DNA from: Lagopus muta
Lineage: Eukaryota > Chordata > Aves > Galliformes > Phasianidae
Reading direction: 5' to 3'
Length of the DNA stretch: 64,000 nt
Assembly: GCF_023343835.1 (NCBI RefSeq)
Contig: NC_064438.1
Location: 58,614,578 to 58,678,577 of the forward strand
Below, in pieces: positions 9,401 through 38,300 of the stretch; the first letter of the stretch is position 1, and each line of letters begins with the position of its first letter. Both the position numbers and the translations under genes were made by a program. Under the pieces are notes generated by a model. That model was not told where the DNA came from. It ran no database searches and worked only from the letters and a program-made list of their open reading frames with translations.

Positions 9401-12400
9401 AAACTGTGCAGAAATACTCAGTGTTTCCATTAAACAGAAAGTAAATACCCTGTCCCTAAAGGGGAAACACCAACCTGTTCTACTCTTGTGAAGATTTCCA
9501 TTTGCTGAAGTCTGACACATGTCTGAGAACATGTCTGCCAGCTGCTGGTACAGCCTCATGAAGTCCTCATTGCGACCAAGTTCATTCTTTGTACGAGTTA
9601 ATCCTGTGCAAAAGAAGGTAAAACACCTCAGCATTCAGACTCCAGAGCAAATCTCACTTTTGCAGTCCAAAAGATAAACTTCTCAAAAGCAGTGAACTCC
9701 TTTCAAGAGCTCAGTGCCATAAGTTGGCTTAGGAAATACAGCAAACGTTGTTTAGAGTTGGTATTTTCTCAGGGAAAATGCCACTGGAGATCTGAAGGAT
9801 GAAAACTATCTGTAGGAACAGAAGCCTGGGGTCCCTGGGTAAACTGAAAGCTCCTACCTCAACCATTCAGCAGGAAGAAAGCTGTCCAGAAATGCTGTGG
9901 GGTTTTTTTTAACCAACTGACAAGAAAGAAACCTCGTTTAAAAGCTCAAACTAACAAACCAACAAGTCTCTGGGATGACTTTCTGACAGTGCAGAAAAGA
10001 ATTTTGTTCTATTCAAATCAGAAAGCAAATGTACCAAATGCAGAACAGAAAAACCAGTTACTAAGAATATTTTCCCTCTGTCACCTTTTAACAGCAGACA
10101 TGAATTTAAGGGGTCTGAGAATTGAGGAAGCACATGAAGTGCTCCCCAGCACCAACAGGAGCTCTGTGCCATCAGAGAACAACAACCTGAAATCAACTGT
10201 AAAAAGGTCAGAAGCATAGAATTCACAAGACAATATATTAGCACACACACACCAGAAACAGACATTCTGCAGACACTCTGGTATGTGATAGGCACTGCAC
10301 ACCTTCGGGTCACACACAGGACAAAGCAGTGCCGTTTTAATTAAGCAGTGCTCTGGGCAAAGTGCTGGCTAAGCTATCCCAAATTACGTGGCCAGATGAC
10401 ACACATGCAAATGAGAACGAAGCAAGAGACCACAGAGCTTCATCCCAGGGCATTCTGCACAGCTGAAACCATCCCCTCCCTGACACAAACTGCAGTTAGA
10501 CACTGCCAAGTGGAAATTTCTCAGCAAAGATGTCAGAACCAAACCAGCTGCAGCTTCATATCTCCCTATGTGAGATCCTGCACAGCTGGGATAGAAATTC
10601 TAGTGTGATGTACCCACATTTATAATCTTCTGGCAAAGGTGCTTGAATCATGCATATGCTTTAAGTACTTCTGCTACAGGGGGAGCTCAATACTGGGAGA
10701 ATTGCTTTACTGAGCAATTTTGGCTTAAATAGTTTAGCACTTTATCTCTGTCTGTCCTGAGGTATTACTGCCTCTTAGTTTGTTTTTTGTGCCTTATTTG
10801 TTTTCAAAATTACTGCTGTACATACACGTGCTTTCCTAAATATACCCCATCTGTAACGCTGAGTTAATGCAATTCCTAGGGGGTCAAAGGAAAAACAAAC
10901 ACCAATTAGGCTTGCAACCCACTCGTTACATTAATTGATTTGTATAAAGCTAGCGAGACAGATGAGGTAAATTAATTGAGGAACAGTGGGAAAAAAAGGA
11001 AGGATGCTTCTGAAGACAGCTCACCTTTTGATCCATCCATAATTCCACAAAGGTAGATGAATAACGATCGCACTCCCATTTGCTGCAGCAGCTCATAACC
11101 ATGATATAAACTGATACAGAGCGCAAAATCTCCTTCAACTATGCCTTGCTGCATCCCCTGTGAAAATAAAACCAACTCATCATTAAATGAGATGATAAAC
11201 AGCAGGAATCGTACTGCCATTCTTACAACAAATACGAGATGAGTGTCTGAGCAACAGGGCCAAAGAACAAAGCGTGCGTAGCAAGTGTCTGCCTGCCCAG
11301 ACCTCCATTAGGCAGGTTACAGGACTTGGGCACCCCATGACAACTGACAGACAAGAGGTGCAGTCATGGCATTCTGAGGGGAGGTGCAACTTTGCTCATC
11401 ATGAACTACAGAGCAATTTCTCAAAACAATCCCAGTTGGGAAGAACGCTTCTTCTCTTTTTAACTCTCCCACAGTAGAATCAGGAACGGTGGAACAAGTA
11501 GGCCTGTTTTATTCCAAAGCTAGAACCAGAATGCTACACTGGAAATCTAAATACACCAAAAAACCTCATAAACTCCAAAGTGCTGTTTTTTATTTACTAC
11601 TTTAATGTAGTAAATGTTTAACTAAAACGTTTAACTTCTGAGTTTAATAACACGAAATAAATGATGGTGCTTACCATGTTTTGAGGAGAAGGGTTTTTTC
11701 TGTACTGATCTCTCGCTAGAATTATCTGGTACTTGGTGAGGCTGGGAATGTCCCGCCTTGCTAAAACCCCCATTTTGATCAGGCGTCCAGCAAACGTTTC
11801 TAGCACCTGCAAACAGAAGTGTACAAGACATGTGAAGGTTAAAGATGTTCAGCCTCCTGCAGTAGTTTTATTTCTACATCTCTGGTACAGCAGGATGCAA
11901 ATCACTCATTTACTTTACTTGAAATGTTGAATTTTTCATAACCAGGTGGTTCCAAAGTAACTTGTTAGTGTACCAGACACAACCATCACAGTATTTTACC
12001 ACAATGCGGTTCCCTACGGATCTGTGCCTGCCATGGCAGCTCCTCCATGTGCTGCCAACCCCAACCTTCTCCACATGCTCAAACCAGCACCAGCAGACAA
12101 CTGGCCCAGGTTGGAGGTGTGTGTGGCAGGGGTGGGAGCAGAGGTGATCAGCAAGGGATGAGCAGAAGGCAGCCGGGCCCAGAACACAGGCTGCCCTGCT
12201 TCCCTCAGCCAGCAGGCAATTTATTTTTACACATCACATGTACCTGCTTTCCACATTGGTGAAATGAAGGAGCTGACCTGCACTAATTCACCGTAATCTT
12301 GTTTTTCCTCTTTGTTTCTCAGCCTTATGCGGTCAGGACTTATTTATGTGTTTATTTATACAGACTTAGCTTTGCAGGAGCGCTAACTGTAATAATTGGA

Positions 12401-15400
12401 GTAATCAGATTTGCTCTACAGAATGACTTACAATCCACCAGCCCACTTGGCGAGCAGAACCCAAAGCACTCAGTGTCCTACAGCACGACGATACGCCTGC
12501 CAAAGGCACCCTGACCTGTGTGGCAGCAGGCAGCCCCTGACCTGCATGCGGTGCTTCCCTGCTCTGCTGCAGCCTGTCCCAGCTCAGCCCAACCACAGCG
12601 CAGAGCTGCAGCCTAACAGCCCCTATCCCCTGTGCTGCTTCTCCCAGCCTGCTGAAAATCGAGTCTGACTGAACCAACGATGACATTCTTTCATTCTACA
12701 CACAATGCTGACTTAAGTATGTCTGCAGTTTCTGAAGATGAAATACCCTAAGATGAAAACCAAAGCCATTTTAAAACTGTGATGCATGTTTGAACACTAA
12801 GTAACAATGCTCCATTCATCCTCCGCGTGCGTTTCATGCTGTGCTGGGTTTTCAGAGCCCATCAAGTTGCACAAATATTACTAATATCTGCACTATTCAT
12901 ACATTGTCAAGCAGCAGCATTTACTTTAACTGCTCTCTGCTGCTTTGGTTGTTTTCATAGTTTGGTGCTGCCTCAGCTTCTTGCTCTGTGTACGGTGCCT
13001 GCACGGCACGAAGAGGTAAATCCCGAGAAAAGGGAGAGGCAATGATTGCCACCACAACTCCAGCGGTATTAATCACCCAAAGAAACAAAAAGCACACAGA
13101 CAACGGTGATAGGGCAAAGGAAAAATTGTGAAAGCAGAAGCTAAACTGAGAAAACAACGCGCTGGGGAATTTCCATGCTGCTGGCTGTGGGCCCACAGCT
13201 CTTTCAAAAACAACTCTCTGCAGTCGGCAGCTAAGCGGATTACAACAGATAAAGGCTGCTGAGAAATAATAGAAACATGGCCTAAATTCCAAACACCGGC
13301 GCACCTCAGGCTGCCGTGGGCCTTTGGACAGGAACAGCACAGAATCACAGAATTGCTCAGGTTGGAAAAGACCTTAAGGATCATCGAGTCCAACTCCAGC
13401 CCAACCATCCTACCCCAACTCTAAGAACATCACGGCCCTGAGCACCACATCCAAACGGTTTTTAAGCACATCCAGGGATGGTGACTCAACCACCTCCCTG
13501 GGCAGCCCATGGCAGTGCTTCACAGCCCTTTCTGCAAAGAAGTGTTTCCTGACATCCAACCTAAACCTCCCCTGCTGCAACTTGAGGCCATTTCCCCTCA
13601 TCCTGTTCACCTGTTCACCAGTGAGGAGAGACCAGCCCCGCTCTGCTGCAATCACCTTTCAGGTATTGGAAGAGAGCAGTCAGGTCTCCCCTCAGCCTCC
13701 TTTTCTCCAGCCCAATCAGCCCCAGTTTCTTCAGTCTCTCCCCATAGGCCACATTCTCCAAGCCCTTCACAGCCTTGTTGCCCTTCTTTTGCACCTGCTC
13801 CAGCACCTCCATGTCCTTTCTGTACTGAGGTGCCCAAAACTGAACCCAGCACTCGAGGTGAGGCCTCACCAGTGCTGAGTACAGGGCAGGATGACTTCCC
13901 CAGTCCTGCTCACCACAGCATTCCTGTCACAAGCCAGGATGCCACTGGCCTTCTTGGCCACCTGGGCACACTGCTGGCTCATATTCAGCTGCCTGTCCAT
14001 CAGTACACCAAGGTCCCCTTCCATCAGAAAGACAGAATGTAGAATATATATATATATATATACACACATATGTATACATACACACACAGAAAGCCACCCA
14101 GAAGCCTGAACTGCTCCTTTTTTTAGTGGGATACCACTGGCACAGCACTTCTTGCTCCCATCAGAACCCAAGCAGTTAAGTGAACACTGGAGAAGCTTAG
14201 GATCAAGCTTTGGTCACAACTAGTGGAAATGGGGTCAGTCTCTCATCACAAAAATATTTATTTAGAAAAGAAATTAATGCTTTAATTAAAAATTAAAGCC
14301 CACATGAGTATAATATCTCTGCGCTGGTTTGTTATTTCCTACGCTTGTTGCATAACTTTTTTGTTTTTTAATTTCCCATTACTTGTATTTTTATGTTTCT
14401 TCTCTTGACCTGGTTTATAACATGCAAGAAAATCATATTGGCACTGTTTGCTTAGTGTCCAATTTAATCATCTTCTGCAAAACAAACCAAGGAAGACTAT
14501 TACAAAAGACAGCAGGATCCAGGCACCTGGAGCTTCAAAACTAACAGAACAGTAAACATAACCTACTTAGAAGAGATACAGAAACAAGCACTACTCAGAG
14601 TGATTGCTTTTATCTGGTCTCCCTACCTTTACTTTTAATTGAAAAGATAATACTTCTGGATTAGGTCTCCTGAACCTTTCCAAAACATTGACATGTTATA
14701 TTACACTCATTTAGATGAATTTCTTGCTAGGACTAATGACTTCTTCTAGCTTGCTAAATGCAATTCAAAAAGCTGACAGATTTACTACCAGTATATACAA
14801 GGCAGCCAGTGAAGTTACCCATACTGCACTAAAACTGCCAGGAACACAAAGGTTTTGGCAGAACAAGAACCTTCCCAGCTCCAGCCGTGACAAACACAGA
14901 ACCTATATGCAAGGACACGAGGCTGCAAGGTGTGATGGAGAGCTACCATGACACCTGTCCTGTGCAGGAACACCACCGTGTCCTACATCTGCACATGCCT
15001 AATGGGACACGGGGCCAGGCAGCTTCACAACACCCCCCTGGGTCTGTTGTGCCCCACACAAACATTGCACTGCTCAACTCTCAACTCTGGGGTAGCAACT
15101 TTTCAACAGAGTGAATTAAGAAAAGAAGGAAAGAGGAGGCTTTTCCCACGTCTGGACCCCACAGTTCTCAGCTGGAAAGCTGGTTGAGCAGCGTATTTGT
15201 CACAGGTCTACAGGGAAGGGTTCTGGTTGTACCGTGCCGGTGGAGTGATTTTGTAGGAAGGCGTGAAGGCAACAGGGGTCTTCCAATATCACACAGAATC
15301 ACATAGAATCACCTAGAATCAATGGAAACGACCTAAAAGATCATCTAGTCCAACTGTCCCCTCATCACCACTGCCACCACAAGCACTAAACCATATCACG

Positions 15401-18400
15401 CAGCACGTCGTCCAGACGCCTCTTGAACACTGCCAGGGACGGCGACTCCACCACCTCCCTGGGCAGCCATTGCAGTGCCTGACCACTCTCTGAGAGAAAA
15501 AGTTCTTCCTCACGTCCAACCTAAACCTCCTCTGGTACAACTTGCGGCCACTGCCCCATGTCCTGCTCGTTGCCCGGGAGAAGAGGCCAAACCCTTCTTC
15601 ACCACAGCCTCCCTTCAGGAGGTTGCAGAGTGCAGTGATGTCTCCCCTGAGCTCCTCTTCTCCACACTGAACAATCCCAGCTCCCTCAGCCTCTCCTCAT
15701 AAGACTTGTGCTCCAGACCCCTCACCATTTTGTTGCCCTTCTCTGCACACGTTCCAGGGCCTCAAGGTCTTTCTTGTAGTGAGGGGCCCCAAACTGAACA
15801 CAGCACTCGAGGTGCGGCCTCACCAGTGCTGAGTACAGGGGGATGATCACCTCCCTGCTCCTGCTGGCCATTCCTAATGCAGGCCAGGATGCCGTTGGCC
15901 CTCTTGGCCACCTGGGCACACTGTGGGCTCATGTTCAGCCGAGCATCAACCAAAACCCCCAGGTCCTTCTCTTCTTCAGACTCACAGCCACTCATCCCCA
16001 AGACTATAATGCTGCATGGGGTTGTTGTGCCCAAAGTGCAGGACCCAACACCTGGCCTTGTTGAACCTCATCCCATTCACCTCAGCTCAGCCATCCAGCT
16101 GATCCAGATCCCTCTGCAGGGCCTCCCTGCCCTCAGGCAGATCCACACCACCTCCCAGCTTCGTGTCATCTGCAAACTTGCTGAGGATACACTCAATGCC
16201 CTCATCTGGGTCATCAATAAAGATATTAAACAAGATGGGCCCCAGTACCGACCCCTGGGGGACACCACTTGAAACGGGTCACAGCTGGACTTCACTCCAT
16301 TCACCACGATCCGCTGGGCACGGCCCTGTAGCCAGTTCCTTACCCAAAGAAGGGCAGACCTGTCCAGGTCACAGGCAGCCAGTTTCCCCAGAAGCAGCCT
16401 GTGAGAGATCATGCCAAAGGCTTTGCTGAGGTCTAGGAAGACATCAGCAGCCCTTCCCTCATCTACCAGACTGGTCACCCAGTCGTAGAAAGAGATGAGG
16501 TTGGTCAAGCACAACCTGCCTTTCACAAACCCGTGCTGGCTGGGCCTGATCCCCTGGACACTGCATACATGCTGTGCAATCTCATCCAAGATGATTTGCT
16601 CCATAACCTTCCCTGGTACCAAGGTCAGGCTGACAGGCCTATAGTTCCTCGGATCCTCCTTACAGCCCTTCTTGAAGATGGGAGTCACATCAGCAAGCCT
16701 CCAATCCTCTGGGACTTCACCAGTTAACCAGGAGCACTGATAGATGGCTGAGAGGGGCTCGGCAATCACCCCCGCCATGGGGTGCAGCCCATCCGGTCCC
16801 ATGGACTTGTGACAGTCCAGATGGAGGAGAAGCTCTCTGACTGTCTCCACGGAATCGCTGGGGGCATATTCTGAGCAGTGTCACAGACTTCCAGATCAGG
16901 GCATGAAAAGCCCAGAGGATAACTGGTGTGGCTATTAAAGGCAGATGTAAAGAAGGCATTGAGGACCTCAGCCCTCTCCTTGTCCTCAGTGACCACATTC
17001 CCTGCTGCTGAGATCTGGAGCGTTCATTGCTTTGTTTTAGGAACTAAAAAGGGCTGTGTTTAACAAAGTGTGATGCCTTGGGAGGGGTAACCCTAACATT
17101 CCCTAAAAGCTCCAGCAGGAACTGTGCACCACCTGTGCAAACTGTAACTCAGCTTCAAGTGGAAGAGCCCAGGGATGCCAGCAGCACAAAGCCCCATGGG
17201 GGGAGACACAGAGGGATGGAGCAGCTCACACACTGCTCCACCAGCTGCAGAGAGCCCTGCACTCCCTGCACACAGGAGAACAAACAGCTCATTGGCATGT
17301 CTGGGGAAACCTCTCAGATCATAAATACAGCACGTCAACGAAGAGGAGGACAATTATTAACATAAAAAGGTGTGGGGCTGCAACAGAAGATGGCTGAGGA
17401 AGGCACAGGAGCTGGTGCTCAGTTTGAGTTACTCTCCGTGTATCTCAGAGCTGTGACAAACGACCAGTAGACTCTAACTGTAAGCCAGAAGAGTGCTGTT
17501 ACATGTAACCTTTGTGCTGACAGATTCCTATCTCCCTTAAAGCAGAAATACAGAAACAGGGACACAGAAGGGAACGGTGCTTTTAAGATGATCTTCTGAT
17601 TCTCTAAAACCAGTACCGATCAACAGACAAAGCATCTTTCTTCCTCTCAAAGTTTCTTTGTCACATTGATGCCAATTCATAAAATCACAGAACAGCTTGG
17701 GTTGGAAGGGACCTCAAGGATCATCAAGCTCCAACCCCACTGCTGTGTGCAGCGTTGCCAGCCACCAGGTCCAGGACCAGATCACATTGCCCAGGGCCCA
17801 TCCAACCAGGCCTCGAACATCTCCAGGGACGGCACCCACAGCTCCTCACCATCCTCTCAGTGAAAACCTCCACTGACATCTACTCTCAATCTCCTTTCCT
17901 TTAGTGTAAAACCTTTCCCCTTTGTCCTACCACTGTCTGCCCATGTAAAAAGTTGACTTCTCTCCTTTTAGTCTCCCTTTTAATATTGGAAAGCCGCCAT
18001 GGGGTCTCCCCAGAGCCTTCTCCTCTCCAGGCTGAACACCCCCAGCTCTCAGAGTTTCTCCATAGGAGAGGTGCTCTGAGCACCCTCTGGACCCACTCCA
18101 GCAGCCCCACATCTCTCTGTGCTGGTCCCAGGTCTGGATGCAGCACTGCAGGCATGGCCTCACAAAGGCAGAGCAGAGGAGGACAGCCTCTCTGTCGGTG
18201 CAGCCCAGAGTGCAGCTGGCCTTCCAGACTGCAAGTGCACACTGCTGGCACAATCTTCTATTACGGCATATTTCACTTATAAAAAAGGCCTACAGTTTAT
18301 ACTTTTCAATTAATTTCACTGAGAATATTTTTCCTCTGTTACTTGAGAGGTTATAAAAAGAAATGGTATTTCTATACCAATCTGTAGTTCAGTAAATGGC

Positions 18401-21400
18401 ATCTCTTTGCACATAACAGAATGAATTGTATCCTCAATCTGCAAGGCTGAATATTTGTTCTTCTTGTATATACAGAGAAATAATCCTCAGGAAAACACCA
18501 GGAATGCAGCACTAACAAAACCACCAAGATCCAGCAGCTACACACAACATCAGTAAGTTGCAGGAAAAAATAAGAAAAATAAAAAAATAAAAAAATCAGC
18601 TTTGTTCAGCTCTAGGAATAGTCCTATGCTAACAGTCCTAACAGCACCAGACACAGACCATGGCACATCTTCAGCACTCTATGAGGCAGCTTCTTGTACA
18701 AAATTACCAGGCACATCACAAAATAAAACCAAATGAAATAAACAAAGAGCAGATCTTCGAAGGAGGATCTGAAATTCCTGCCAGCCTCTCTCTTGGAGCA
18801 GCCACTTACCCTCCAAATGATGCCAGAACAAGGGTTGGAATAGTTTTCTGTTACAAAGTATCAGAATCACTTCTGCAGGCCGAGGAGGAGCCTCTGCACA
18901 GAGCCCAGAAGTCAGCCCATCTCCAGAGCACTGACCAGCTGGGAGCCATCTGAGGTGCTATGATTAAGTTGCAGTAATTCAACTTGCCCAACCATGTAGA
19001 AATTCCCAATCCTCACAAGTGAAGTAGGTGCTCGTACTGCACTGAAGCACTGTTCAAGACGTTACCTGTGATGTGGATGCATTCATACAGTGACTTGTTT
19101 CATGACACCCACCTGCAGCCAAGCAGCTGCCCCACATAGGAGCAGCTTGATGAACGAAGCCTGATAACACCCACAGCTCAGCTCCCGTCAGCATGTGCTC
19201 CACAAATCCCGTGATTCAGCACATCAGGAGCTGACCATGGAATCACATCACCAAGCAAGGCTGTCAAGAGACAACCTACCTCGGCCGGCCACCTTTGGCT
19301 GGCAGAAGGAACGCATCGCAGAACTGATTTCAGTCTGTTCTGTGCCATTACGACCAGCGAACTCCTGCTCCTAAGGCAACTAATACTTTGTTGGATCAGG
19401 GAACGGAGCCTGGGAGGGAGAATTAAGTGTCACATCTCACAGACAACAGCTTCATTCCCAACCCATGTTCTCCTTCCCCTACAGGCATCTCAGCAGCGTA
19501 TGGGAGAGATTCCTTTCCTTAAAGAAAAGTGAAAGGTCCATGGCTTCCCTTTCTTGCCTGAGACAAAGGGAGTGCAACTCATATTCCAGTAGTGTTGGGA
19601 ACCACGGACAGGCAGCTACAAGCAGGGCTGCACGCTCTGCACAGCCCACAGTCAGGTCCGGCTCTGGGACAGCCCTCCCACATTCCGGGGAGCTGTGTGC
19701 CTTTTCCTTTCCATAATGTGATATAGCCATCAAATCCCAAAGCTGGATATTCAAGCACAAAACGACTCCTGGATTTTGTGTGCAATCAGCGTCCAATAAC
19801 ACTGCAGGAACTCCTGAAAAAAAAAGATGGATGTGCCAGGAAAGAAAGGGAGCAGGGAAAGGAAAGGAGTTGGGAAGGGAAAGAAAAGCAGACAGGAGAG
19901 AGAAAGGAGCTGGAAATGGAAAAGCGCTGTGAAAGGAGAGAAGCAAAAAGAAAAAGTGCGGAAGGAAAAGGAGCTGGGAAAAAAGAAAGAAGCAAGGAAA
20001 GGGAGATGGGAAAGGAGCGGAGCTGGGAAGGCGAACCTTCCTTAATACCTGAAAGCACACGAAATGCAAACACCCTGACAGCTGCACCGCTGGGAGCTGG
20101 CAGCAGCAGGCAAGGCAGAAAGGCAGCTGCAGACAGGTGTGTAAAACACACGCACACACTCACACGCACGCACACCTGCTGTCCCCGTGCCCGCCCCTCG
20201 CTCCCGCCCCCTCCGAGCCCTTCATAAAGCGGCTCTGCACACACGGCGCGGCACGGCGCACCCGGCGCGATGGAGACGGGCGGCTGCCGCATGAGCGGCG
20301 CGGAGCCGAGCGGCCCGGCCGCCATCACGCTGGAGGATCTGGACGGCGTGGCGGAGGAGAGCGCCGACTCGGCGTACCACAGCCACGGCAGCAGCCTGGA
20401 GGAGGAGGGGGCCGAGCGCATGGACGACGAGGAGCAGGAGCGGCTGCTGAACTACTGGCAGAGCGTGGGCAGGGGGCACCAGGTGGACGTGCCCCGCGGT
20501 AAGCCGGCCGAGCGCGGGGCGGGGGGCGCGGGCGGCTCTCCCGTCGTTCGCCTTCCGAGCTGCGGGGCGTCGACCCTGGAGCCGATGGGGGCCGACGGCC
20601 TTGGTTAAAAGTTCAACGGGCCGACCCCGAGCTACAGAATGGTAGAACCGTTCGGTTGGAAGGGCCGGCGCCAGTGATCCTATGATGTTGTAGGAACGCG
20701 CCTCAGTGGGGCGAGCTGAGTAGGCCGTCTGTTCTTAAACCTAAGCCATCTTTCAGTGCCAGCTTTCAGTAAACTAGAGGCTTAACTTTGCTTTTTGACA
20801 ACAAGCTGCCAGGTTTGCCCCAATGAAAAGTTCTGTATTTTCCACGTTGAGCATAGAAAAATCAGAGAAGCTGTAGCAAATAGCACAGCTCAGCGACCAC
20901 AAGCCGCCTTTTGCAGTGTAACGCTGAGCAGGGATCCTCAGCACTGCTGCTGGGCTCCTAAGCAGCCTTCAAAGAGGGGGGAGGCAGCAAGCCCCAAAGA
21001 GACTGCCTTAAGTTCTGCTGAAATGGACCTGCTGCTATTGATGCTCCTTCACTCCAGCACAAAGGGCACAAGCTCACTTTCTCCCTTTTCAAGTAATTCC
21101 CAGAAATTCCATGTTACATTTCTGATGCCTTAAGAAGGAGAACTGATGGCTCCTCAGGTACCAGAACACCTCCAGCCTGGCTGAGAGCTGTGAATGCACA
21201 GCACCAGCAGGGCAGCCCTGGGCTCCAGTACTCGCTGTGGAGTCCTTAGGATAGCAAGCTGAGCATCACAGAATGGTTTGGGTTGGAGGGGACCTTTAAG
21301 GTCATCCAGCTCTAGCCCCTGCTGCAGGCAGGGCCACCTCCCATAGCCCAGGTTGCTCACAGCCCCATCCAGCCTGGCCTTCAGTGCTTCCATGGAGGGG

Positions 21401-24400
21401 CATCCACAGCCTCGCTGTGCAACCTGTTCCAGTGTCACATCACCCTCACAGTAATTAATTCCTTCCTGATATCTGGTCTAAATCTACCCTCTTCCAATTT
21501 AAAGCCATTTCCCCTCGTCCTGCTGCTACCTGCCCTTATAAAAAGTCAAAAGTGGTGCACATGCCAAAGTAGTATGTTGCCACATTTTGGTTACTACAAC
21601 AGAAAAGGTTTGCTTCATAATATGAAGCAGGTATTACAAAAATCAGGAGAGGGCTTCCTTCAGGTCCTGCCTGGAGCTGTCAGAGAGGGTTGCACCTTAC
21701 CTAGCAGAAAGAGCCTGTCAGATTAGCTTGCACCATTCTAAGTACAGGGGAACTGTTATCCCCCAGGGCAGCATGCAGTCAGCTAGAGCATCCCCAGCCT
21801 CAGGAGTCCCAGACGAAACACGGATGACTCTCTGTGAAGAGAAACCCACCGCTCTACCCATTGCAGCTGATGCTGCAGCGCACACAAATGTGGGATTTAT
21901 TTGCTGCCACAGTGGTAGCTGTGCAGCCAGGGCACTGCAATCTTAACAGCAGAGCATATGCTTGCTGTAGCCTAGTGGTAAAGTCTGTGAAATAAGAGCA
22001 AAACTGCTCCTGTCCATAGTTCTGGGCCGTGCAAGCTTGGCACCTTGCTGCATGGTGGCAGCACGCCTTGGAGAAAGATATCTTGCTAGTAGCTTTTGTT
22101 AGTACCTTGTAAGGGTTACAGAGCAGCATCACCCTCCTACAGACATCATGAGGTTTGAACACGCTTACAGGACTGACATACCAATTTGTCACTGTTAGCA
22201 AGACCACAGTAATCCTGCAGTGAGACTGATCAGCCTGTGCCAAACCTTGCAGCCAAAAGGAAAGTACAGGTGTAGGATGATGCAATACGGCTTTCTTGGC
22301 TTGAGAACTCCATGTTATCCACTCCCAGCAGAAGCAGAAAACATGCTGCAGCAGTTCCTTCACATTTCTCAATTCTAACTTCAACACAAGATTAACAAGA
22401 GAACTGTTAAGCATGGAAAACATCCACTTGCTGTAGCGTTAGGCTATCTAAAGATCCGCAGCATACAAAGCAGCATGTTCTGAATTGAGCACCCTGGCTC
22501 CAGATCAAGCTTCAGATATTGACTTGCACGTGATTTTCCATCAGTTCCCATACACTCCCCATGCTGAGGTTATGTCACATGGGCAGTAGCACATCTGTGC
22601 AGATATGTGGCTGCTGGGCATGCAGGGAAGGAACCATGGGGGGAAGGATGGAAGGATGGAAGGAAGAGGCTGCTGTCAAGTGTGCATCATCTACAGAAAG
22701 CCCTTTGTAAAGATTAGCCTCTTTCACAAACCTACCCACAGCTTGGGATACAATTATTTCATAACCATAATTTACAATTTTAAAACGTAATTAAACCAAG
22801 CCCTCACCCAGGTGCACTGTTACAACTCGTTATCATCTCGCCTCATTTTGTCACACCAGGATTCAGGTTGCCAAGCCTGGACTGAGAGAGCATCTGTATG
22901 TGAAACAACTCCCTTGCTTTGAGCCATGAAAGCTGAGTGCTGTGCATGGCTGAGTATTCACAGCGCACATCATGCTGCTGTGCTGGTGGGCACGGATTTG
23001 TGGAGTGAAGAGTAAAACTGAAGGGACTTCCATTGGTTGTAACTGTTATCCCGTGTGTTAACATGCAGAAAAGAGTCTGATCACATTTGTCAGTGAAAGA
23101 ATCAGAAATAGAGTTAAGGTTTCCAGGGCCTTAAAAGATCTTCTAATTTGCCACTGTAAATCCAGAGCTGAAGCATAACGTGCTGTTTTTTCCCTCAGCA
23201 TCCAAGGAGGTCAATTTTAAATGTCATTACTTGCATTTTAAATTTATTTCTCAATGACATTTACAAAAACAGGTCTAAAATAAGCTAAAGTGTATCCTTC
23301 TGCCCCTTATTAATAGGATCTTTACTGCTCCAAACAGCAGTAGAGCCCCACACTGAGTGCCAGGAGATGCAGGTTTGATTCCCAGCTCAGCTCCAGATTT
23401 ACTGAGTGACACAGGCCCAGTTAATCCCTCTGCACTTTAACCCTCTCCTCTCTGCAGCTCCGTGCCCCCAGCACCCTGTCTCCCTGCTGAAGGCACTGGG
23501 GCACTCGGGACACAGAAAAGGGATTTTCAGTTGAAACTTCCAGTCCTTTGCACACCCGTGTCTGACACCACGGGGCCGTATGGCAGAAACTCACAGACAT
23601 GTTTTCAATCACTGTACAGGAAAAACAAGTTTCTTAACCCCTACCCAAGTGCACAAATGCTCGTATCAGCCCAGCTTGGAGAAACAAGGGAGCAGCTCCT
23701 TTGGCAGAGAGGCTTTGTGTCGCCAGGCACAACCCTGCGGCTGAGCTGCTGAAGCTGCCTGTGAGGGCTGGCCAAAGCCTATTTACCAACTGCAGCCAAA
23801 GGCAAACACAAATACATTCACCCCAGCCATATTTAAACTGCAAAACCCACAGGGGGACAGAAGCACAAGGATGTGCTGGTATTTCACATGTGAGTACAGA
23901 TACTGACCGTGTGAGCTTAGCTGGGAATATAATGATTAATACAGCTGCTTTGCTCTACTCCCACCCTGCTCTTGGGCTTCACTTTGCTGGAACATCCACA
24001 TCTCTGCTGGCTTCCACCAGCAGCCCCCTACCCCTTCCAGGCCTCTCACAGCCCGCACCTGATGTCCTCAGCATCCAGCCACAGACAGTGGTGGGCTGCT
24101 GGGTGGATTTGATGATCTCAGTGATCTTTTCCAACCTGAATGATTCTATGATAAAACTATTATGCACCAAAAAGAAATAGCCTCAAATTAACACGTGCAC
24201 AAAAAAGTTCTATTCTAGTTCCTTTGTTAAACAATCACATCTTGAGAAGATGCATTTCTTCAGTGAAGCATGCACTGAGGAATTTCAATTTTGCTCTTAT
24301 TTATTTCTTTAATTTAACAGGACACTTTTCTTCTCTCTTATCTGTGGTTTTGGTGCTGTTAAAGAAGCAAACATCTTACATTAAGAGTCATCCATCTCTG

Positions 24401-27400
24401 CAATTTCCCAAGGGCAGGGGTTCCTTAACGTACCCAGCACACTGGGTTTGATCACAGGCACTGTGTTTTTCTTTACATACACAGTCAGAATTTTCTATGC
24501 TAACTTCTGTCTGCTGCCTGTTCTCCATCACTGCATCCTGAGCCCAGCTGTGATGGGATCGAGGCACTCCCATCCCACCTGCCCCACCTCATGGGCTGCT
24601 CTCAGCATCCTTTACTCCCACTGTACACCTTGGTGCTCTCTGCTGATGATCACAGAATGGTTTGGGTTGGAAGGGGCCCTTCAAGGCCCTCTGGTCCCAC
24701 TGCCTGCAGTGCACAGGGACACCCACAGCCCCATCAGTGCTCACAGCCCATCCCCTGAGCTCTGCTGTCTCTGGGCTGGGACACCAGCACCTCTCTGGAC
24801 ATCCTGTGCAGTGCCTCAGCACCCAAACCCTCCCAGCTGTGCAGCCTTAACAGCAGAGCTTGCATTACAAAAACCTTGCGTTTGCAAACAAGAGCAGCTG
24901 ACACAATTTACTTTTTCACATGAACGCATCCAGCGCCGAAGGATTTGCCAGGATGGGCAGCACCATCTGCACAGAGCCAAGTGGGCACTGCCAAACCCCC
25001 CAGGAGACACAGCCATAACATACAGCACACAGACCAGAGCTGCTGACTGCACCTGGTGATACGAAAGCACTGAGTCTGCTCCCATTCAACCGACAGAAAG
25101 CAGCGTGAAGCGTTCCACTGCTGTCTCTGCAGCTTCACATCTAAAACTGGGAATGCTGTCTTTTGTTGCAGATATGGCAGAGCCCATCCAGCAGCTGACC
25201 CGGAACAACAGCCCCCAGGAGAGGCAGAGCATCCCATTCACCCTCATCCAGCGCAAGGAAAAGGTACCCAGCCCCTCCCAGCTCCCTTGGTAACAGACTT
25301 GGCACTGCCCAAACCGAGATTTGAAAGCTGTGTTCCTTTATAAAGTTAAGTTACCTACTCAGGATTTTTGGCATTGTAGGTGCAAAGTGTTACATTCACA
25401 CAACTGCATTTCATTTGTAACCTGTTGCCATTTTTTCAAGCATGGGCAAACTTTCCTATTTTTATTAGCTGGAAATCAGAGGAATGTCAGAACACAGACA
25501 GGTATCACAGTCCTCGTGACATTTTAGAACTAATTTAACAAAAAAACCTCCTATTTTGAGACTTGAAACAAACCCAGCATTTCCTCCATCTAAAATAATG
25601 CACTTGCTTCTTTACAATCATGGTAATTAAACATCAGCAGAGGTTGGAACTGGAAACAAAAGTTGGGAGTTGTGTGTCACGGGCCATTATCAAAGAGAAC
25701 ATCAATTTGCAAATCCATATCCCACAGCCAGCTCTTGTGTAATAAAACCTTCAAGGTGATGCCCAGCAAGTTGGGCAAACGGCAAATCAACAAACCTCTC
25801 CTTATCACTTATGAAGGTTTCCTGTCACATTTACTTTAAACAGAGCCATATAATTCAAATTTATAAATATCACCACTTCACTGTATTTCATTTAACCAGT
25901 TCAGGACTCCCATTACAGCTTGCATTTTGCATTAACCTTACAACTTACACTTTGCATTTACACTGCAATGAAACACTCAAAGCAATGTCTCAGTGCTGCT
26001 GCAATAAATAAATACTCAGCATCACAAGCTCCTGAGATGGCAGTTTCTTTAAAGAAGAGCCACCCGTGAGTCTGCCAAGAGATCCCTGTCCATGCTCATT
26101 GCTGCAACCCTTCCTGGCCGATATGAGGAAGGACTGAAGTTTGCATGACCATTTCAGTGAGAGCAGAAAAAGATGCAGCTCTTCCTGCTCTCAGGTGAGA
26201 TGCAAACACTGTGCTGGTTTTAAGAGCCTGCCTGCTGCATGCCAGCCTGGGCCTCAAAGCACACAGCGTGCCCAAGGCACAGCCAGCACCAGCCTTTCCA
26301 ATCGTTCCTTGTGCTTGCTGTTCTCTAAAGAACAGCATTTCTTGATGTCAAGCTACTGAGTAACATATGACTTTATGACTTCTGCTTGCTTGTGGGTTTT
26401 TAAATTAGTGAACTTGAAATACAAAACCACGATCCTCCTGTGCCTGCAGCTCGGAGACCTGCTGTATGAAAAGCGTCAGTATGGGAAGGCCAAGTGGGCC
26501 TGCATAAAGATGAAGGAGAAGCAGTACGAGCAGAGCATCTGCCTGGGCTTCATGAAGCTCATGAGGTACATCTGTGAGCAGAACTCCTCAGGTATGGTAC
26601 CACAATTCTGCTTTAGAGTAAAAACAGCACGTGTGTGCATTGGCTCCTCCCAGTTAGACGGATATTTGTTGTTTTCCTTTTCCCAAGCAGACCACCCCAG
26701 TCAATGGACATTTTCATGCCATACAGCCTTTCCAGCACAACATCAACCAGGCAGCTCCCCCAGCACACCTGCTATTAGAGAGCACCTGAAGGAGACCAGC
26801 CCTCCAAGGCTGCGTGGCACTGATGCTGGCTGGCTCTGTATGCTGCCAGCCAGGCCCAAGGCCTTTGCTGCAGGATGCCATGGTGTAGCTTTCACAGCAG
26901 AAGTGGCATTGTCTGCTCACAGTTTAATGCTCAAGAGGCAGAACGCGATGCCTGCCCTGCTGTAGCTCAAATTGTGCATGACATGATACTCAAATTGTGC
27001 ATGACATGAAACATCCGTGCAGTTGAAGCTTATCTTCCAAAACCATAATCCAGTTTTAACTCAAGAACTGTCAAGGATGGCAAATGCACCATGCCCTTGA
27101 TTTTCATTCTTCTACCCTCCATTAAAAAGTACTGCAGCCTCCAATGCCTTGTTCGCCCTAGCACACGTCAAGTCAATCCTTCATTTTCTTTCCAAGAAAC
27201 TCAAACCATTGCTCTCCAAAGTTTGTCCTTAATCAGGTACCTTCCCTTTCCCCGTCCTGTTAATGCTTAAATAATTGTAAAAATGTTGTTCTGGCTCCAG
27301 AACAGTTCAGTGCTGTTTTCAGTCTGCACAGAGAAGCTAACTTCTCACTCCCAATCATCACTGCTGTATGCACCCTCATAGCTACAAATTCATTTTCTGC

Positions 27401-30400
27401 AGCACCACAAATGAAGCACTGTGTTTGTCAACAGCAAACCCTACAAGAACTCACAGTGCAGACCCCTGTTCTGCCTACGCTTTGTTCCCAAATACTCAAA
27501 ACATGACACAAGAGCAGTATGCAAGATAAACACAACCATCTCAAAATGGAGGAAAGTAGTTAAGTCAAATCATACATGAAGATAGGGGAGCTCACTAACT
27601 GCTGCGTTTTAGACAGATATGCAAACCTATGTACAAATTGAAGTTCTATGTATATACACACACAGATATATACACACAGCCACACACAGATGACAAGGTT
27701 TAATTCAATGCCTCTTCCAATCTGGAATACAGAAACCCACCTTCTGAAATATCACACTGAATTCCTTTGCAATGGAAACCTTTCTTCTCAGCAGTACTCC
27801 CTTTCTATTGCTCACTGTGAGCTCAGAAGCCAGGAACAGCACACAGGCATCCTTTTGCACTTTCTAAAAGCCATCTGTGTCTCCTCAGGGCTGTACCTGG
27901 GGATAACCATCCCCATTGTGACCATCGTCCACACCAACGAGTCTCAGTCGGAGATGAGGCAGGCGGTGACGGTGGCATACTACCTGCCCGAGGTGCTGCA
28001 GGATCAGCCTCCTCATCCTTTTGACTCCGACATCATCATTGAAGAATGGCCTTCTACTATTGTTTATAGTAGGTAAGAAACGTTTTCGTTTTGCAAACCA
28101 AATTCTTAAAGCCAACCAACTTAAAACGTGACTTCCAGTAACTTTTCAAAAGCTGCCTGCTGTGTGAAACGAGGGCACTCAGCAAATAACAGCTACCAAT
28201 ATGATGTACATCCTTGCATGTAAATATAAGGTATAACTGCTTCCCAAAACAGAACATTCTGTGTAGCTGGGACAAACCATCCAGCATATCACTGAATGTA
28301 CTGAGTTAAGGAAAAGCGTTACCTGGCTGAGGTCAGCCACAGTCAGTGGCACTTGTGAATCACCACCAAGTAGCTTAGAAGAGAAAGCAACGCTTCCAGG
28401 CTCTGGAAAAGATGCAGATGTTAAAGAAGAACCTGATACGAAGTTGCTTGTTACAGGAGCTTCAGAGGAATCACCAACGAAGACTCAATCATGAGAGAAA
28501 TAAACCTGCTGGCGGAAATCCTGGAGAGCCCCGAGCTGTGCCTGCAGGACACGTTCATCATCGCCGGCTACACAAACCCCGCTGCTGCCAACAGACACAA
28601 CGAGATCTGGTTCCTGCAGAGGCCATAGCCTCCTGCTCCTGGTGCTCAGCCCCCCCAGAACCAGTCCTGACCTGCTGGCACCATCCCACCTCTGGACGGG
28701 GCAGGACTGGCTGTGAGAGCCCGGGAACGGCAGAGCGGTGGCTGGCAGCACAGCGCAATCACTGCAGCTCAGCGAGCGCACAGAGGTAACCCCTGGCACC
28801 GACATCATTTCCTATGTCAACTTCTACAATTTCTGAACAGTCATCACAGAGATTTTTAGCACTACGAAGAGCAGTTCACCCTATTTATTTTTCCCTCTCA
28901 GATAAGGGAGACAGAGCCCTCCCCCATCCCATCCCTAGGGCAGATCCCCAGCACCAGCTGCAGCCGCTGCCAGCAGGACACAGCACAACACCAAGCCCAT
29001 CTCCTGAAATACAAACACCAGGTCTTCATTTCTAAAAGACTGCTCAGATTTAGGGACCAGAGCAAGGAGCGAGGCCCAGCCTGTTCTGACCCCCTCTCTT
29101 GTGCAGCAGAGGCTCTCAGTGCTAACCTCAAAAAGCATTCAACCAAAGTAACTTCAACCTCGTGAAGAGACCAAAAAGGCAGAACAGCACTAATGCTCAC
29201 TGAAATTGCAGGGGAAAAGTTATAGTTCACCTCATTGACACACATACAGCCCCATGACCCTACTTAGCACTCCTAAATAGGGAGTGCTCGCTCTCAATTC
29301 TTTTAGAAGTGTTTTCTGAGCACTTTTTCCTTTAGTCTTTGCAGAACGCTGCAGTGCTGCCACTGAAGCCACCTGTTGGCTGCTCCCCACATCTCCCAGC
29401 AGTATCACCAAGGTTCAGAACCACCTCAGCCAGAAATGCCCTCTGGCACAGCAGCTCCGAGCCCCACACGGTCGCTCAGAGCATCCCTTCTGGCTGGGCT
29501 GCCCCCACCTCTCCAGGCTCTGTCCCAGCTCCTGACCACTCTCACTGTGACAGTCCCTGATTTCTGACTTCCCACATCGCAGCTTGTTTCCTTCAGCCAC
29601 ATCCTTAGGGCAGCTCCTGCACGCAGCTGAGCACCCCCACAAAGCCCAGCTGCGTGTGGGGCTGGGGGCTGCACTCGCAGTTACAGCACCTGACCCTTTA
29701 GCATTGGGTTAGCAGATGGCTTTGCTCTCAGAAATCCCTTCTTAATGTCTCCCCTTACCTGATAATAGAATATAGGACTTAATTAGTACCTTTTTATACA
29801 AAATTTAAGGAAGCCTGTCACCAGTTATTTATCAGTTACCAGAGCGATGCTTCATAGAGAGCTTTGTGTTCTCCAGCTGCAACACACAGCATGACGCCCA
29901 GTGCTGGGTGTGCAGTGCTGACAGGTCAGGAGGGCTTAAGGGGTTCTGGGGCAATGCCACCCCCACAGACCCTGCTGGAAGCGCCAGCATTAACGCAGAA
30001 GCTAACAAACTAATGGAAAATAACTTTTCTAAAGCTGACCTGAGTATAGAGCCCAGGGAGGCATGAAATGATAAGCTTTGCTCCTCTCACGCCCTTGTTC
30101 CCCCACCCCCTCCAGCAATACAGCAAATAAAAAACAGATTTCCACCTCTGACAAGATTTGTTGAATTAAATTTTGCCAGTGACACAAGCACCCAAGGAGG
30201 CTGTGGATGCCCCATCCCTGCAGGCATTCAAGGCCAGGCTGGATGTGGCTCTTGGCAGCCTGGGCTGCTGGTTGGCAACCTGCACACAGCAGGGGTTGGA
30301 ACTGGATGAGCACTGTGCTCCTGTGCAACCCAGGCCATGCTGTGATTCTGGCACATCAAACACAAAGTACCCATTGGAAGCAGTTAACCCTCTCACCAGA

Positions 30401-33400
30401 AAGCATTGGTTTGTACATATTTTATACTTCAAATGCCTTTTGCTTGCTGCTATCATGTCTCTTTCCATAGGCAGCCCTCACCAAAACACTTCTGTGGCTC
30501 AGCTACTTGTGGGTATGTCACAGAAACACCTTGTTACAAACACACAGCACCTGCTGAGCGTGCTGGCAATATCTGCAGCAAGTGCTCAGTGTTGTTCAAT
30601 GTAAAACTGTGAAGTCCGGGGTAGTAGTGATGCTGACTTAGGTTAGGCTGCTTCTGCTGCTGAGAAAGAACCAACAAATCCTACATTTGAAGATATGGAA
30701 CACTTCTGTGAATGGCCCTCCGAGGCACAGAGCTGCGTTTGCTAATTGCCACCACGAGATCAGCCTCACAGTCAGTCCCTGAAGGCCAAGGAGGTGTTAC
30801 AGGGACTCAGATGGATCATCTCCAAGTCCCACACGAGTCCCTAACCCCTGTTACTGGGACAGGCACTGCATTATTCACCTGCAGCTCTGCTTTGTAAGCT
30901 CTTAATTAAAGGACTGCCATTTTTAATTAGAAGCATTTGATTTCCGCTATCCAAAGGCCATAGTAAAACAGATTCCCCCCTATTTCTGGAAGATTAAATG
31001 CTGTAGCCTTAACAGATAAATGCTGTCCCGCATACTGCGTGTTTTCCAAACAAGTGTTAGTGCCTAAAATGTCTGTTCCAGCTTTGTGACGCTCAGGGCC
31101 TTGCTTACTGTGTGTATCCAAGTACAAGCATCGGCAAGCTGCGCTGTTTTATGCTGCCCTTTGTTTTTACTTCTGTGTTGTCTTGTTTACTGTTACTGTT
31201 TCTCAAAGTAAAGGTGATGATTTTATTGTGCACAGAGCATCCTTGGGTTTCATTTTTGTGACACACAAATTCTTGCCTTCAGCAGCACTGATTTCAGAAC
31301 TCAATGTCAGGGTCTCTTTGCTGCTGCGTTTCCTCTGAATGGAAGCAGCAGAAGGTGCGGTTCTGATGCTGCAAGAGGCTTGAGGCCTGCATTTGAGACT
31401 GTCACTGTAAGAGCCAGAAGATGTGAGCAGCACTCAAATAGTGCTAGCAGTGCTCAAATAGCACTCTGCAGTGTAGAGCACAGCAGACACCCTACCTTCC
31501 CATTCAAGCAGCTCATATCAACTGCCTCACCCTCTCCAAAAATGGAGAACTGAACGCACAGATGAGCTAAAGCTCTCAAGAACAGTTTCAGAGAAAATGT
31601 TTGAGCTCTGCAGAAAGCTGGGCACAACCAGGACAACACAAAACCTCCCAGCACCACCACATTCCACCTCAACTGGAGGCCCTCAGCTCGGGTGTTGTTC
31701 TGCAAGGAGGAGAAAACGAATTAAGCTCTCCACTGCAGCTCCTGAAGGGTAACAGTGGTGCAGAGCAAAATAGCAGCTCTTGTAGTTGACAGCACAAAAT
31801 GAACCGGGGAGCGAAGTATTGTAAGTTCTTGCTGTTCTAGGTGGAGATGTTAGAGTAGGAAGGCACACACACAGAAGTACCTTGGAGAAGTTACTTTGAG
31901 ATTGAAGAAGAGAAGGCTGTGGGGAGACCTCATGGTGGCCTTCCAGTGCTCGAAGGGAGCAGATAAAAGGAGGGGAACAACGGCTGTTTGTGAGGGTGGA
32001 TGGTGATGGGACAAGTGGAATGGTTTTAAAGTGAGACAGGGGAGGTTTGGGTTGGATATGAGAAGGAAGTTTTTCACCAGAGGGTGGTGAGGCACTGGCA
32101 CAGGTTGCCCAAGGAGGCTGTGGATGCCCCATCCCTGCAGGCATTCAAGGCCAGGCTGGATGTGGCTCTGGGCAGCCTGGGCTGCTGGTTGGCGACCTGC
32201 ACACAGCAGGGGTTGGAGCTGGATGAGCGCTGTGCTCCTTTGCAACCCAGGCCATGCTGTGGTCCTATGAAGTACACACTTGGTGACAGCCCCATTTAAC
32301 AGTAAGGAAAGGAAAGGACTCACGTGGATGTAAGCTCTCTGAATCCCACCCAGCTCTTCACCAAGAGGAACGACGATTTTTTCCACTTGCCGCTCATGAG
32401 AATAAGGCTGAATTTCTGGAGAATCTTCAGTACACAGCTCTATCTGAGCAATGAGTAAGTTGGAAACAACTTGCTGCACAGCCTGTGGGAAAAGCCACCA
32501 AACAAAAGAGCACATCTTTGTGTTAATATCCCAACCATGCAAGTCAACACGTCATGAAAATAACTACTTTTAAACAGCTTTGAATGGCACATCAAGGAAA
32601 ACACACTATGCAAAAACTGAAATGTAAAAACCTTCAACTTGAAGATTTTAAACAGTATGTTAACAAACACTGCAGCGGCACGAGGGCTGGAGTGCCAGAG
32701 CCCTCCCTTAGGGCTGGGTACCCCAGGGAGGTGGTGGATCGCAGACCCACAGCACAGATGGGGTGGAAGGTTCCCACAGCCCCACGTGGTAATTAAATGG
32801 CAGAGCTTTCCCTTTCAGTGGGTTTGGACGTCCATCTGCCTTTGGTGCAAACCTCAGCCCAACTTACTTTCACACAGCAAACAATGCTGAGGGGAATACA
32901 AGAAACATTCTGCATGAGCTGTATGTTTTCTTTGGCTCTGGTAGGTTTGCATTCTCAAAGAACAGAAGATAACATTTCCTCTGAGGAAGGGCAGAAATAA
33001 TGAACAGAGCCTACAGCAGTAATTAATTCAGAGTCTACATGACCAAGATAAATGCTGAAGAACCCATGGATGGTGAAGCGATTCAGCTTTGATTTACAAC
33101 TCCCCTGACTTCAATATCCCACATGTGCTGCCAAGCAGAGCCCGTTCAGCTCCAGCTCCCTCACCTTGGTGTCACTGCCTGGCGTTGCACTCAGGGCCAA
33201 AACCCGGAACTGCTTGGTGTATCTGCTCAGCTCCTTCACGACCTGCAGACAGGAAGGGTCCACATCAGCACCCACACAGGGATGGGCAGGAGACAGAAGG
33301 TGGCGAATGCTTTGGCTCTGTGACACAGCAGTGTGTCAAACAGCAACATGTCTTCAGGAAAGGTTTTATACGTTACTTGGAAATCAGATAACCGATCAGC

Positions 33401-35192: not shown

Positions 35193-35303
35193 ATGGCGGC
35201 GGCCACGGCGCCCGCGCAGCCCTGGAGCGCGGAGGAGCTGCGGAGCGAGGCGCTGCCCAAGAAGGACATCATCAAGTTCCTGCAGGAACACGCGGCGCAG
35301 GCG
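35193..35303 (+). CDS. FKBP3: FKBP3 exon 1
   Basis: 37 codons, donor GCG|GTACGG, phase 0. It encodes [16 protein letters not shown] and [13 protein letters not shown]. Followed by a 77-bp intron. Confidence 0.95.
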
Positions 35304-38300
35304 GTACGGCACGGCGCGGCGCCCGGCCCCCAGCCACCCCGCTCAGGCCGGCCCCGCTCAGCCCGATTCTGTCCTTGCAGTTCCTGGCCGAGCACCGCCT
35401 GCTGGGGCAGGTGAAGAACGTGGCCAAGACGGCCAACAAGGAGCAGCTGATCGCGGCCTACACGCAGCTGTTCCTCACGCAGGTACGGGTGCGGGGCGCC
35501 GGGTGCGGGGCGCCGGGTGCGGGGCGCCGGGTGCGGGGCGCCGGGTGCGGGGCGCCGGGTGCGGGGCGCCGGGTGCGGGGCGCCGGGTGCGGGGCGCCGG
35601 GTGCGGGGCGCCGGGTGCGGGGCGCCGGGTGCGGGGCGCCGGGTGCGGGGCGGGCCGTGATGGAGCTGCGGCCCCGCGGCTCTCAGCGCTTCAAGGGCAC
35701 GGACGGAGCCGAGCCGGCGGCGGAGAAGGCGAAGCCCGGCAAGGCGGAGAAGGAGAAGGAGAAAGCGGCGAAGGCCGAGGAGCCCACGGAGGAGGTCGGT
35801 GAGGCCGCGGCCGGGGAGCCGCACGCCGTGCCCGCAAATGGGGGGCGGGCGGAGGGGGGGAGGCGGAGCGCTGCCATCGGAACCGTTCTGCAATCAGGGG
35901 CCGCCGAAGTACGTCAAATCCATCTTAAAGAAGGGCGACAAAACCAACTTCCCAAAGAAAGGAGACACCGTGCACTGCTGGTACACCGGGAAGCTGCAGG
36001 ACGGAACCGTCTTCGACACCAACATCCAGACCAGTAAGGCTGCGTGTGTGCTGTGCGTGCGCCCTGTGAGCCTTTGTGCCTGCCTTCGTGGAAGGAACTG
36101 AGCTGGGCTGTGTGGGTGCTGGGCGTTACTGTGGGCTGCAGTGTGACATGGCTGCTTCCTGCTCTTCTGCTGTCCCCGCAGCCACAGCTGGCACTGAGTG
36201 CAGTGCTTCCAGCAGTGCTGCAGCTGCTTGGGGTGAAGGATGGGGTCTGAATGGAGAGCTTTCCTATCTGTGGAACAGGACAGCGTGGTTAGCTTCTCTA
36301 ATGAGACACTAATTGGTGTGCTTATGTAAGAAAACCTGCACTGTGGGAGCACTGGAGCAGCAGAGCTCTGAAGCAGTCTCCTGTAGAACACCAGAAGCAC
36401 AGAACGGCCCGGGTTGGAAGGGACCTCAAGGGTCACGAAGCTCCAACCCCCCGCCACAGGCAGGGCCACCAACCTCCACATTTCACAGCAGCCCAGGCTG
36501 CCCAGGGCCCCATCCAACCTGGCCTTCAACACCTCCAGGGGTGGACGGGGCATCAGAGCACAGACGTGTGCTGATAATGCGCACTCATGGAATGGTGGGG
36601 TTGGAAGGCACCTTTAAAGATCATTTGGTTCCAACCCCAATCGGAGAATTCAGGTGTGTGACACTGAAGAGCAAGGAGCCCTTCCAGCAGTGCTGCCCAG
36701 AACTGCCAGTGCTCAGAACTGCCAGTGATTCATTGCTTGCTTTAAAACACTTCTGCAGCATTCACAGCGGAATCGGTTCCCTGCTGGCTCTGCTGTTTCA
36801 GTAACACATCTATGAGATGTGCCATCGAATCTAGTAATTCAGAACTGACTCTCTTAGGTTCAGTGGGTCGGTATGTGGAAGATGTGTGTCAGCATGCAAC
36901 CTGAACATTTAATGGTGTTTTTAGTGCACAACACTGAATTTTATCCTAAAAATCTGATAGTTCCTAGAGGTGATACAAGGAGGATGGGTATTTATTTAAA
37001 GCATGACCTCAGCAGTAATTCCAGATAAAGTTCTGCGTGTGATGTTAAAGCACATAAATGTAAAACTGTCTTTCAGGTTCAAAGAAGAAGAAAGCAGCCA
37101 AACCTTTAAGTTTCAAAGTCGGCATAGGAAAAGTTATCAGAGGCGTAAGTACAAATCAGTGCCGATTCCCTCGGGACCCAATGAGTTTTCAGCCTTCAGT
37201 TACATGGCTGCAATGCAGAGTTGGAGCTGGTTTGTTCCCTGCTGAGGTGAAAAGGGGAAAGCTCTGCCATCAGCAGGACGTGCTGTTGGTCCGTTCCGGT
37301 GCATCCATCCACCTGCAGCGGTGCGGGGGGAGCGCAGCCCCTTGCTGTCTGCACAGCACTGCAGCACAGAGATGATCGGGTTCCCAGGCTCAGCTGCCGC
37401 AGTGCTGTGTGCTCTGAGCAACCAGGAGATTGGCTTTTGTCAGCATCTTTTCTGTTTGCCTCAGTGCTGCTTTGTGTGCTGAGCCTCCATATTCTGGTTG
37501 CTGTCGTGTACAGAGTTGTGCTTTTGATGCTGTGAACTGTTCTGCAGATCCACCTGCTTGCTTAAATCTTCAGCCCGCAGGTACTGGTGTGCTCGGCTGT
37601 GTGGGGGAGATACCAGCACAGAGCAGAGCAGTGCTGAGCCTGTGCTGAATTTGGCTGTCTGTGGCAGATAAGGATACAGGAGGGATCTGATGCTGACCTG
37701 ACTTTGTATCTGTTCACATGTGTGACCTTCCGTGCAGCTGCTCTGCAGAAAGGCAGCCTTGCTGGGTGGAACTGGGGAGGGGAAGCAGCCTCAGGCACGT
37801 GGCCAGCACTGCAGAAGTAGTGGGGTTTTCTTTAGTCACTGGGTTTGATGCTCCTGTGGCATCCTTCACCTTCGCAGAGGGCCCTTCATCGGTTACAGGC
37901 CATGAGGAGCAGCTGTTTGTTGTGGTGCTGATGTGGTGCTCAAATGATTGCTGGCTTTGGTAGGGCAGTCTCAAAGAGGGACGAGGACTGATGTAAAGTT
38001 GGCATTTAAGAGCAGACCTCAATGAGCACTGATCCGTGGTCAGGAGAGGGGGGAGATTGAGAGGTGGAGACGGAGCAAAGACAAAACCTCTCAGTGCTGT
38101 ACAAGCAGTGTTCAGCTCCAAAACGTGTTCTGAGGCCGTGCATAGTTCCCTTAAGCAGGCATGTTCACTTCTTTGATTCAGCAGCACGTTTGCTACATGG
38201 ATCCATGGGGCTGAGCTGTGCTGGACGGCCCAGGCCTGTGCAGATTGGGTTGGTGCCAACAGCAGCTGTGGGTAAATGCTTCCTCAGTTGGAAGGAATGA

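Follow-up and report, generated by a model that had tools for sequence, protein, structure and literature searches.

A SOUL-family gene nested antisense in FANCM intron 4 of Lagopus muta is most likely the bird ortholog of fish soul3

Introduction

Within the window analyzed here, a stretch of 64,000 nucleotides from Lagopus muta (assembly GCF_023343835.1, contig NC_064438.1, positions 58,614,578 to 58,678,577), a gene of the SOUL family lies inside an intron of FANCM and on the opposite strand. Which SOUL gene is it, how old is its association with this locus, and do mammals have it? The initial annotation offered two origins, an ancestral gene lost in mammals or a lineage-specific insertion that had expanded the intron. 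We consider it highly probable that the gene is the avian ortholog of fish soul3, ancient, nested in FANCM intron 4 and seemingly lost in mammals. Our literature search found no description of soul3 nesting or of its absence or loss in mammals.

Results

Structure and nesting of the gene

The gene, hereafter called soul3, consists of five exons on the plus strand (20270-28628). Its spliced coding sequence of 819 bp comprises 272 codons and a TAG stop, the reading frame is undisrupted, and all four introns are bounded by GT-AG, in agreement with the complete five-exon gene with good splice sites that the initial annotation had described. Exon 1 (20270..20498) holds the ATG, an acidic N-terminal stretch and the first conserved helix (residues 1-76 plus one base), and its N-terminal motifs recur in cartilaginous fish in our alignments. 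Exon 2 (25172..25263) reaches residue 107 and contains the conserved stretch of the N-terminal arm, exon 3 (26450..26591) encodes part of the SOUL domain including Gln117, exon 4 (27889..28072) is placed by the splice model and the Pfam match, and exon 5 (28457..28628) carries the TAG stop. A single Pfam domain, SOUL (PF04832), covers residues 96-268 (E 2e-42) and scores 145.6 bits against a gathering cut-off of 27, which places the product in the SOUL/HEBP family.

Three bird records of 271-272 residues (P0001-P0003) are 93-94% identical across 100% of the product, with 272, 271 and 271 aligned residues, respectively. These records are probably annotation predictions themselves, and their agreement on the start, the exon content and edges, and the stop supports the gene model rather than proving it; judged from the sequences, this homology excludes chance open frames as its source.

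FANCM was located by tblastn using human FANCM as the query, which gave 11 exon-like matches on the minus strand of the window. Exon 4 (32324..32482) ends at 32324, followed by GTGAGT, and exon 5 (11675..11806) starts at 11806, preceded by TTGCAG; both boundaries are consensus splice sites, so that intron 4 (11807..32323, minus strand) measures 20,517 bp. All coding exons of soul3 are contained in this one intron, with 3.7 kb to spare on the exon 4 side and 8.5 kb on the exon 5 side, which bears out the antisense nesting wholly within an intron of about 20.5 kb.

Place among the SOUL genes

A search of the bird's own 1.03-Gb assembly returned 11 SOUL matches (E <= 0.001) at no fewer than four loci, a lower bound as the best candidates alone were scored: C9, which is the window gene, C1, C8 and C2. 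The C1 gene is HEBP1 (72% identity to mouse HEBP1) and the C8 gene is HEBP2 (51% identity to human HEBP2), while the C2 gene has 48% identity to the window gene over the SOUL domain and common N-terminal motifs. Over the same columns, the window gene shares 32% identity with human HEBP2 and 70% with hornshark soul3. In a maximum-likelihood tree of 26 sequences and 159 columns, soul3 together with the C2 gene is separated from HEBP1 and HEBP2 with a support of 100, and the HEBP2 and HEBP1 clades are supported at 98 and 100, respectively. Human HEBP2 and mouse HEBP1 fall with the C8 and C1 bird genes, not with the window gene; this is the phylogeny that the initial annotation had called for, and it puts the window gene outside both. 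Homology to the soul3 proteins extends beyond the SOUL domain and includes an N-terminal ITLEDLD...LLxYWQ... arm in alignments of 22 and 121 sequences, in which some rows (e.g. P0031 and P0040) are without part of the N-terminus. On this evidence the window gene is most likely the bird ortholog of fish soul3.

The gene is already known and annotated, as soul3 in many fish and under HEBP1- or HEBP2-type names in tetrapods, and it is its identity that is under-appreciated. Fish soul3 ("heme-binding protein soul3") and the tetrapod "heme-binding protein 1-like" and "2-like" records are homologous to the window gene over most or all of the length and share its N-terminal motifs, SOUL domain and tree group, although their labels differ. 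HEBP2/SOUL (human 3r8k and 4ayz; bird C8) resembles soul3 in fold, in apparent intron places and at 32-33% identity, but forms a separate clade, its aligned chains are without the N-terminal helical arm, and the position of mouse His42 is not fixed in soul3. HEBP1/p22HBP (murine 7oon and 2hva; bird C1), with 29% identity, likewise forms a separate clade and its aligned chains have no counterpart of the arm.

The fourth SOUL gene (C2:105.21 Mb; L006, L011) has compact introns, an exon layout similar to that of soul3 and the N-terminal motifs ITLEDLD and LPRDMA.PI. It differs from soul3 in its contig and its shorter acidic stretch, and it branches outside all soul3 sequences including those of cartilaginous fish, which by the tree (support 79) makes it an old paralog of soul3. 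Because humans are not known to carry SOUL genes other than HEBP1 and HEBP2, the C2 gene may likewise be missing from mammals. Introns near ...NSSG|LYLG and VYSR|SFRG occur at matching places in all four bird genes, as judged by eye from match edges with phases left uncompared, and point to copying at the DNA level.

Predicted fold and ligand site

The predicted model of the soul3 product shows a SOUL-type fold, a SOUL barrel with two N-terminal helices, and its best sequence matches in the PDB are to human HEBP2. The role of His42 in mouse SOUL is taken from PMC6321638. The corresponding His of human HEBP2, to which we transferred the mouse number by eye, aligns with Gln117 of soul3, so that the window gene is without the HEBP2-type His at this position.

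Distribution across vertebrates

A protein search with soul3 gave 237 matches, of which the best 120 were listed, named after cluster representatives (ten rows are nameless). These 120 span birds, turtles, crocodile, lizards, tuatara, frogs, salamanders, caecilian, lungfish and coelacanth, and also include ray-finned fish, sharks, rays and chimaera (58-62% for the ray-finned and cartilaginous fish). Among the bird rows, five span the full query with 88-94% identity, and the rest span 54-90% of it with 80-93%; at 90% identity, the clusters of P0001, P0002 and P0003 hold 145, 187 and 32 sequences. Where the initial annotation had looked to related birds for disruptive changes, full-length records were found instead.

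Of the best 120 matches, 110 carry a name, and none of these is a mammal; the nameless row P0042 falls among ray-finned fish in a FastTree phylogeny. The weakest of the 120 scores 341 bits and the five cartilaginous-fish rows score 343-364 bits, so a full-length mammalian ortholog would need to be more divergent than the latter. The same database does hold mammals, since placental mammals, marsupials and platypus appear in the FKBP3 table. Absence of soul3 from mammals is thus well supported at the level of protein sequences; loss, as opposed to non-detection, is what we infer from it. Separately, where rows labeled "lgn" have long frames on contigs some 1.1-1.7 kb in length (P0042, with 1,284 bp, is one), they resemble spliced transcripts.

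Linkage to FKBP3 and FANCM

As a proxy for linkage, equal lengths of the longest contig per cluster were taken as the same contig, a measure that differs from nesting and leaves gene order out of view. By this proxy soul3 and FKBP3 share a contig in all 16 tetrapods with lengths for both: a turtle (Mauremys mutica), two birds (Columba livia, 4.5 Mb, and Theristicus caerulescens), two lizards (Pogona and Hemicordylus), a caecilian (Rhinatrema), two salamanders (Ambystoma and Pleurodeles, the latter with locus tags 001478 and 001466), and the frogs Hyperolius, Discoglossus, Mantella, Spea, Eleutherodactylus, Gastrophryne, Pelodytes and Pseudophryne. For soul3 and FANCM, two of four birds agree (Corvus kubaryi and Theristicus), and the disagreeing lengths in Columba livia and Alca torda have values that suggest different assemblies. 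In Myripristis murdjan, we observed a second, faster-evolving soul3-like copy (P0116) that by length lies on FKBP3's contig, the slower P0057 being elsewhere.

Putative promoter, 3′ end and neighboring genes

The CpG promoter proposed by the initial annotation was recovered as a CpG-rich putative promoter region at 20000..20999, with CpG observed-to-expected ratios of 0.81-1.04 in the three windows that span it and contain exon 1, 0.55 in the overlapping window 19750-20249, and 0.06-0.29 in the remaining six of ten windows (19500-22249). The motif scan found CATAAA at 20223 and Sp1-like boxes in this region. The first AATAAA or ATTAAA 3′ of the soul3 stop, on the plus strand at 30126..30131, is a candidate poly(A) signal. 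A purine-rich tandem-repeat tract lies at 19839-19922, about 350 bp upstream of the start codon.

On the FANCM side, tblastn matched the coding part of exon 1 (34658..35129), exon 2 (33939..34111) and exon 3 (33165..33242), all on the minus strand, and the nearest records to the window's FANCM sequence are those of Tympanuchus (97%) and Chrysolophus (96%). FKBP3, the linkage marker, lies head-to-head with FANCM exon 1 (plus strand, coding matches spanning 35199..39413). Between two of its coding matches, beside the FANCM/FKBP3 divergent promoter, is a perfect 14-bp GC-rich tandem repeat, CGGGTGCGGGGCGC, with 11.9 copies at 100% match (35486-35652). Intron 4 also contains, on the minus strand at 16080-16880, an RVT_1 stretch (7.1e-12) that we take to be, probably, a decayed CR1-type long interspersed nuclear element. 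In the region 43000-64000, PRPF39 lies on the minus strand (HAT_PRP39_N, 1.7e-07, at 53860-54276), and further up is a putative TOGARAM1, by likeness only, where the family scan gave one sub-threshold TTI1_C match and no family for two other frames. Together with FKBP3 and FANCM, this arrangement is that of human 14q21.

Discussion

The explanation that we favor builds on the observed gene structure, family, place among the four bird SOUL genes, listed distribution, shared contigs by the proxy and predicted fold. soul3 would be an ancient member of the SOUL/HEBP family of jawed vertebrates that originated when a SOUL-family gene was duplicated long ago with its introns retained. Its linkage to FKBP3 would go back at least to the ancestor of amphibians and amniotes, and mammals seem to have lost the gene. 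It would be transcribed from its own CpG promoter inside FANCM intron 4, on the strand opposite FANCM. We expect the product, in all likelihood soluble and intracellular, to bind a flat hydrophobic ligand in its SOUL barrel; for this family the expected ligand is a tetrapyrrole such as heme. The conserved N-terminal helical arm would mediate a soul3-specific contact.

Several observations weigh against this explanation. Within the maximum-likelihood tree, soul3 without the C2 gene is supported at 79 only, and lizard and axolotl are grouped (96), contrary to accepted relationships; an earlier FastTree phylogeny, in which HEBP1 and HEBP2 were the only paralogs, placed both inside soul3 beside the caecilian (0.64). 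Because of the lizard-axolotl grouping and the FastTree placement, the branching inside soul3 is not reliable. Where mouse SOUL has His42, only 61 of the 121 aligned sequences have a His and the window gene has a Gln, a variability that argues against heme ligation by a conserved His. The nesting was seen directly in this genome only, the evidence elsewhere being the contig proxy of cluster representatives, and, unlike in tetrapods, the best soul3 copy is off FKBP3's contig in five of five ray-finned fish (Megalops cyprinoides, Denticeps, Arapaima, Lampris and Myripristis). The disagreement in fish could stem from the teleost genome duplication, if different duplicates were kept after it. As to mammals, 117 of the 237 matches fall outside the best 120, some listed rows are nameless, and the search covered a protein database, as opposed to mammalian genomes.

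Of the alternatives, the one that survives best, although we consider it unlikely, is that a lineage-specific insertion or duplication in birds or sauropsids placed soul3 in the intron and enlarged it. The length of intron 4 and its reverse-transcriptase stretch are compatible with such an event, as are the direct observation of nesting in a single genome and the differing proxy in ray-finned fish. It is nevertheless difficult to reconcile with soul3 relatives from cartilaginous fish upwards and with the shared FKBP3 contig from frogs (eight or more) to birds, and the introns of soul3 indicate that it is no retrocopy. The two origins first offered therefore fared differently: an ancestral gene lost in mammals agrees with relatives from shark to bird, the lack of named mammals among the best matches and the grouping of human HEBP2 and mouse HEBP1 with other bird genes, whereas an insertion expanding the intron is disfavored by introns at places apparently common with the paralogs and by the tetrapod linkage, the ray-finned fish excepted (0/5).

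More doubtful still is the suggestion that soul3 is chiefly an antisense regulator interfering with FANCM, from which mammals were freed by losing it. Full nesting on opposite strands fits such a role, but a protein conserved from cartilaginous fish to birds is what protein function would predict, as opposed to an antisense role, and the coding exons of the two genes do not overlap in the models, so that little direct effect on FANCM is expected. We find it very improbable that the window gene is bird HEBP2 (SOUL), as database names would have it, with mammals carrying the same gene elsewhere: several bird, turtle and frog rows are indeed named "heme-binding protein 2", "2-like" or HEBP2, and human HEBP2 is the best PDB sequence match, but the place of HEBP2 in the tree is taken by the separate C8 gene, and the window gene is far closer to hornshark soul3 than to human HEBP2. 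We assign a negligible probability to a pseudogene in decay or to open frames that arose by chance; both are contradicted by the intact frame, the GT-AG boundaries throughout and the full-length conservation in three bird records.

Returning to soul3 as an ancient gene, a bolder version of this history seems possible to us, if somewhat short of an even chance: soul3 would have been nested antisense in FANCM before the amphibian-amniote split, mammals would have deleted the guest and kept the host, and the soul3 group, marked by the conserved helical arm and by the lack of a fixed His ligand, would be a SOUL subfamily in its own right, having a ligand or partner that HEBP1 and HEBP2 are not known to have. 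Work centered on human and mouse cannot see a gene that mammals seemingly lack, and data on "HEBP2" in birds, reptiles and frogs may concern a different gene, soul3. Since FANCM survives with and seemingly without its guest, the effect of nesting is testable, and mammals would, if this history is true, be a natural case in which a nested partner of long standing was deleted.

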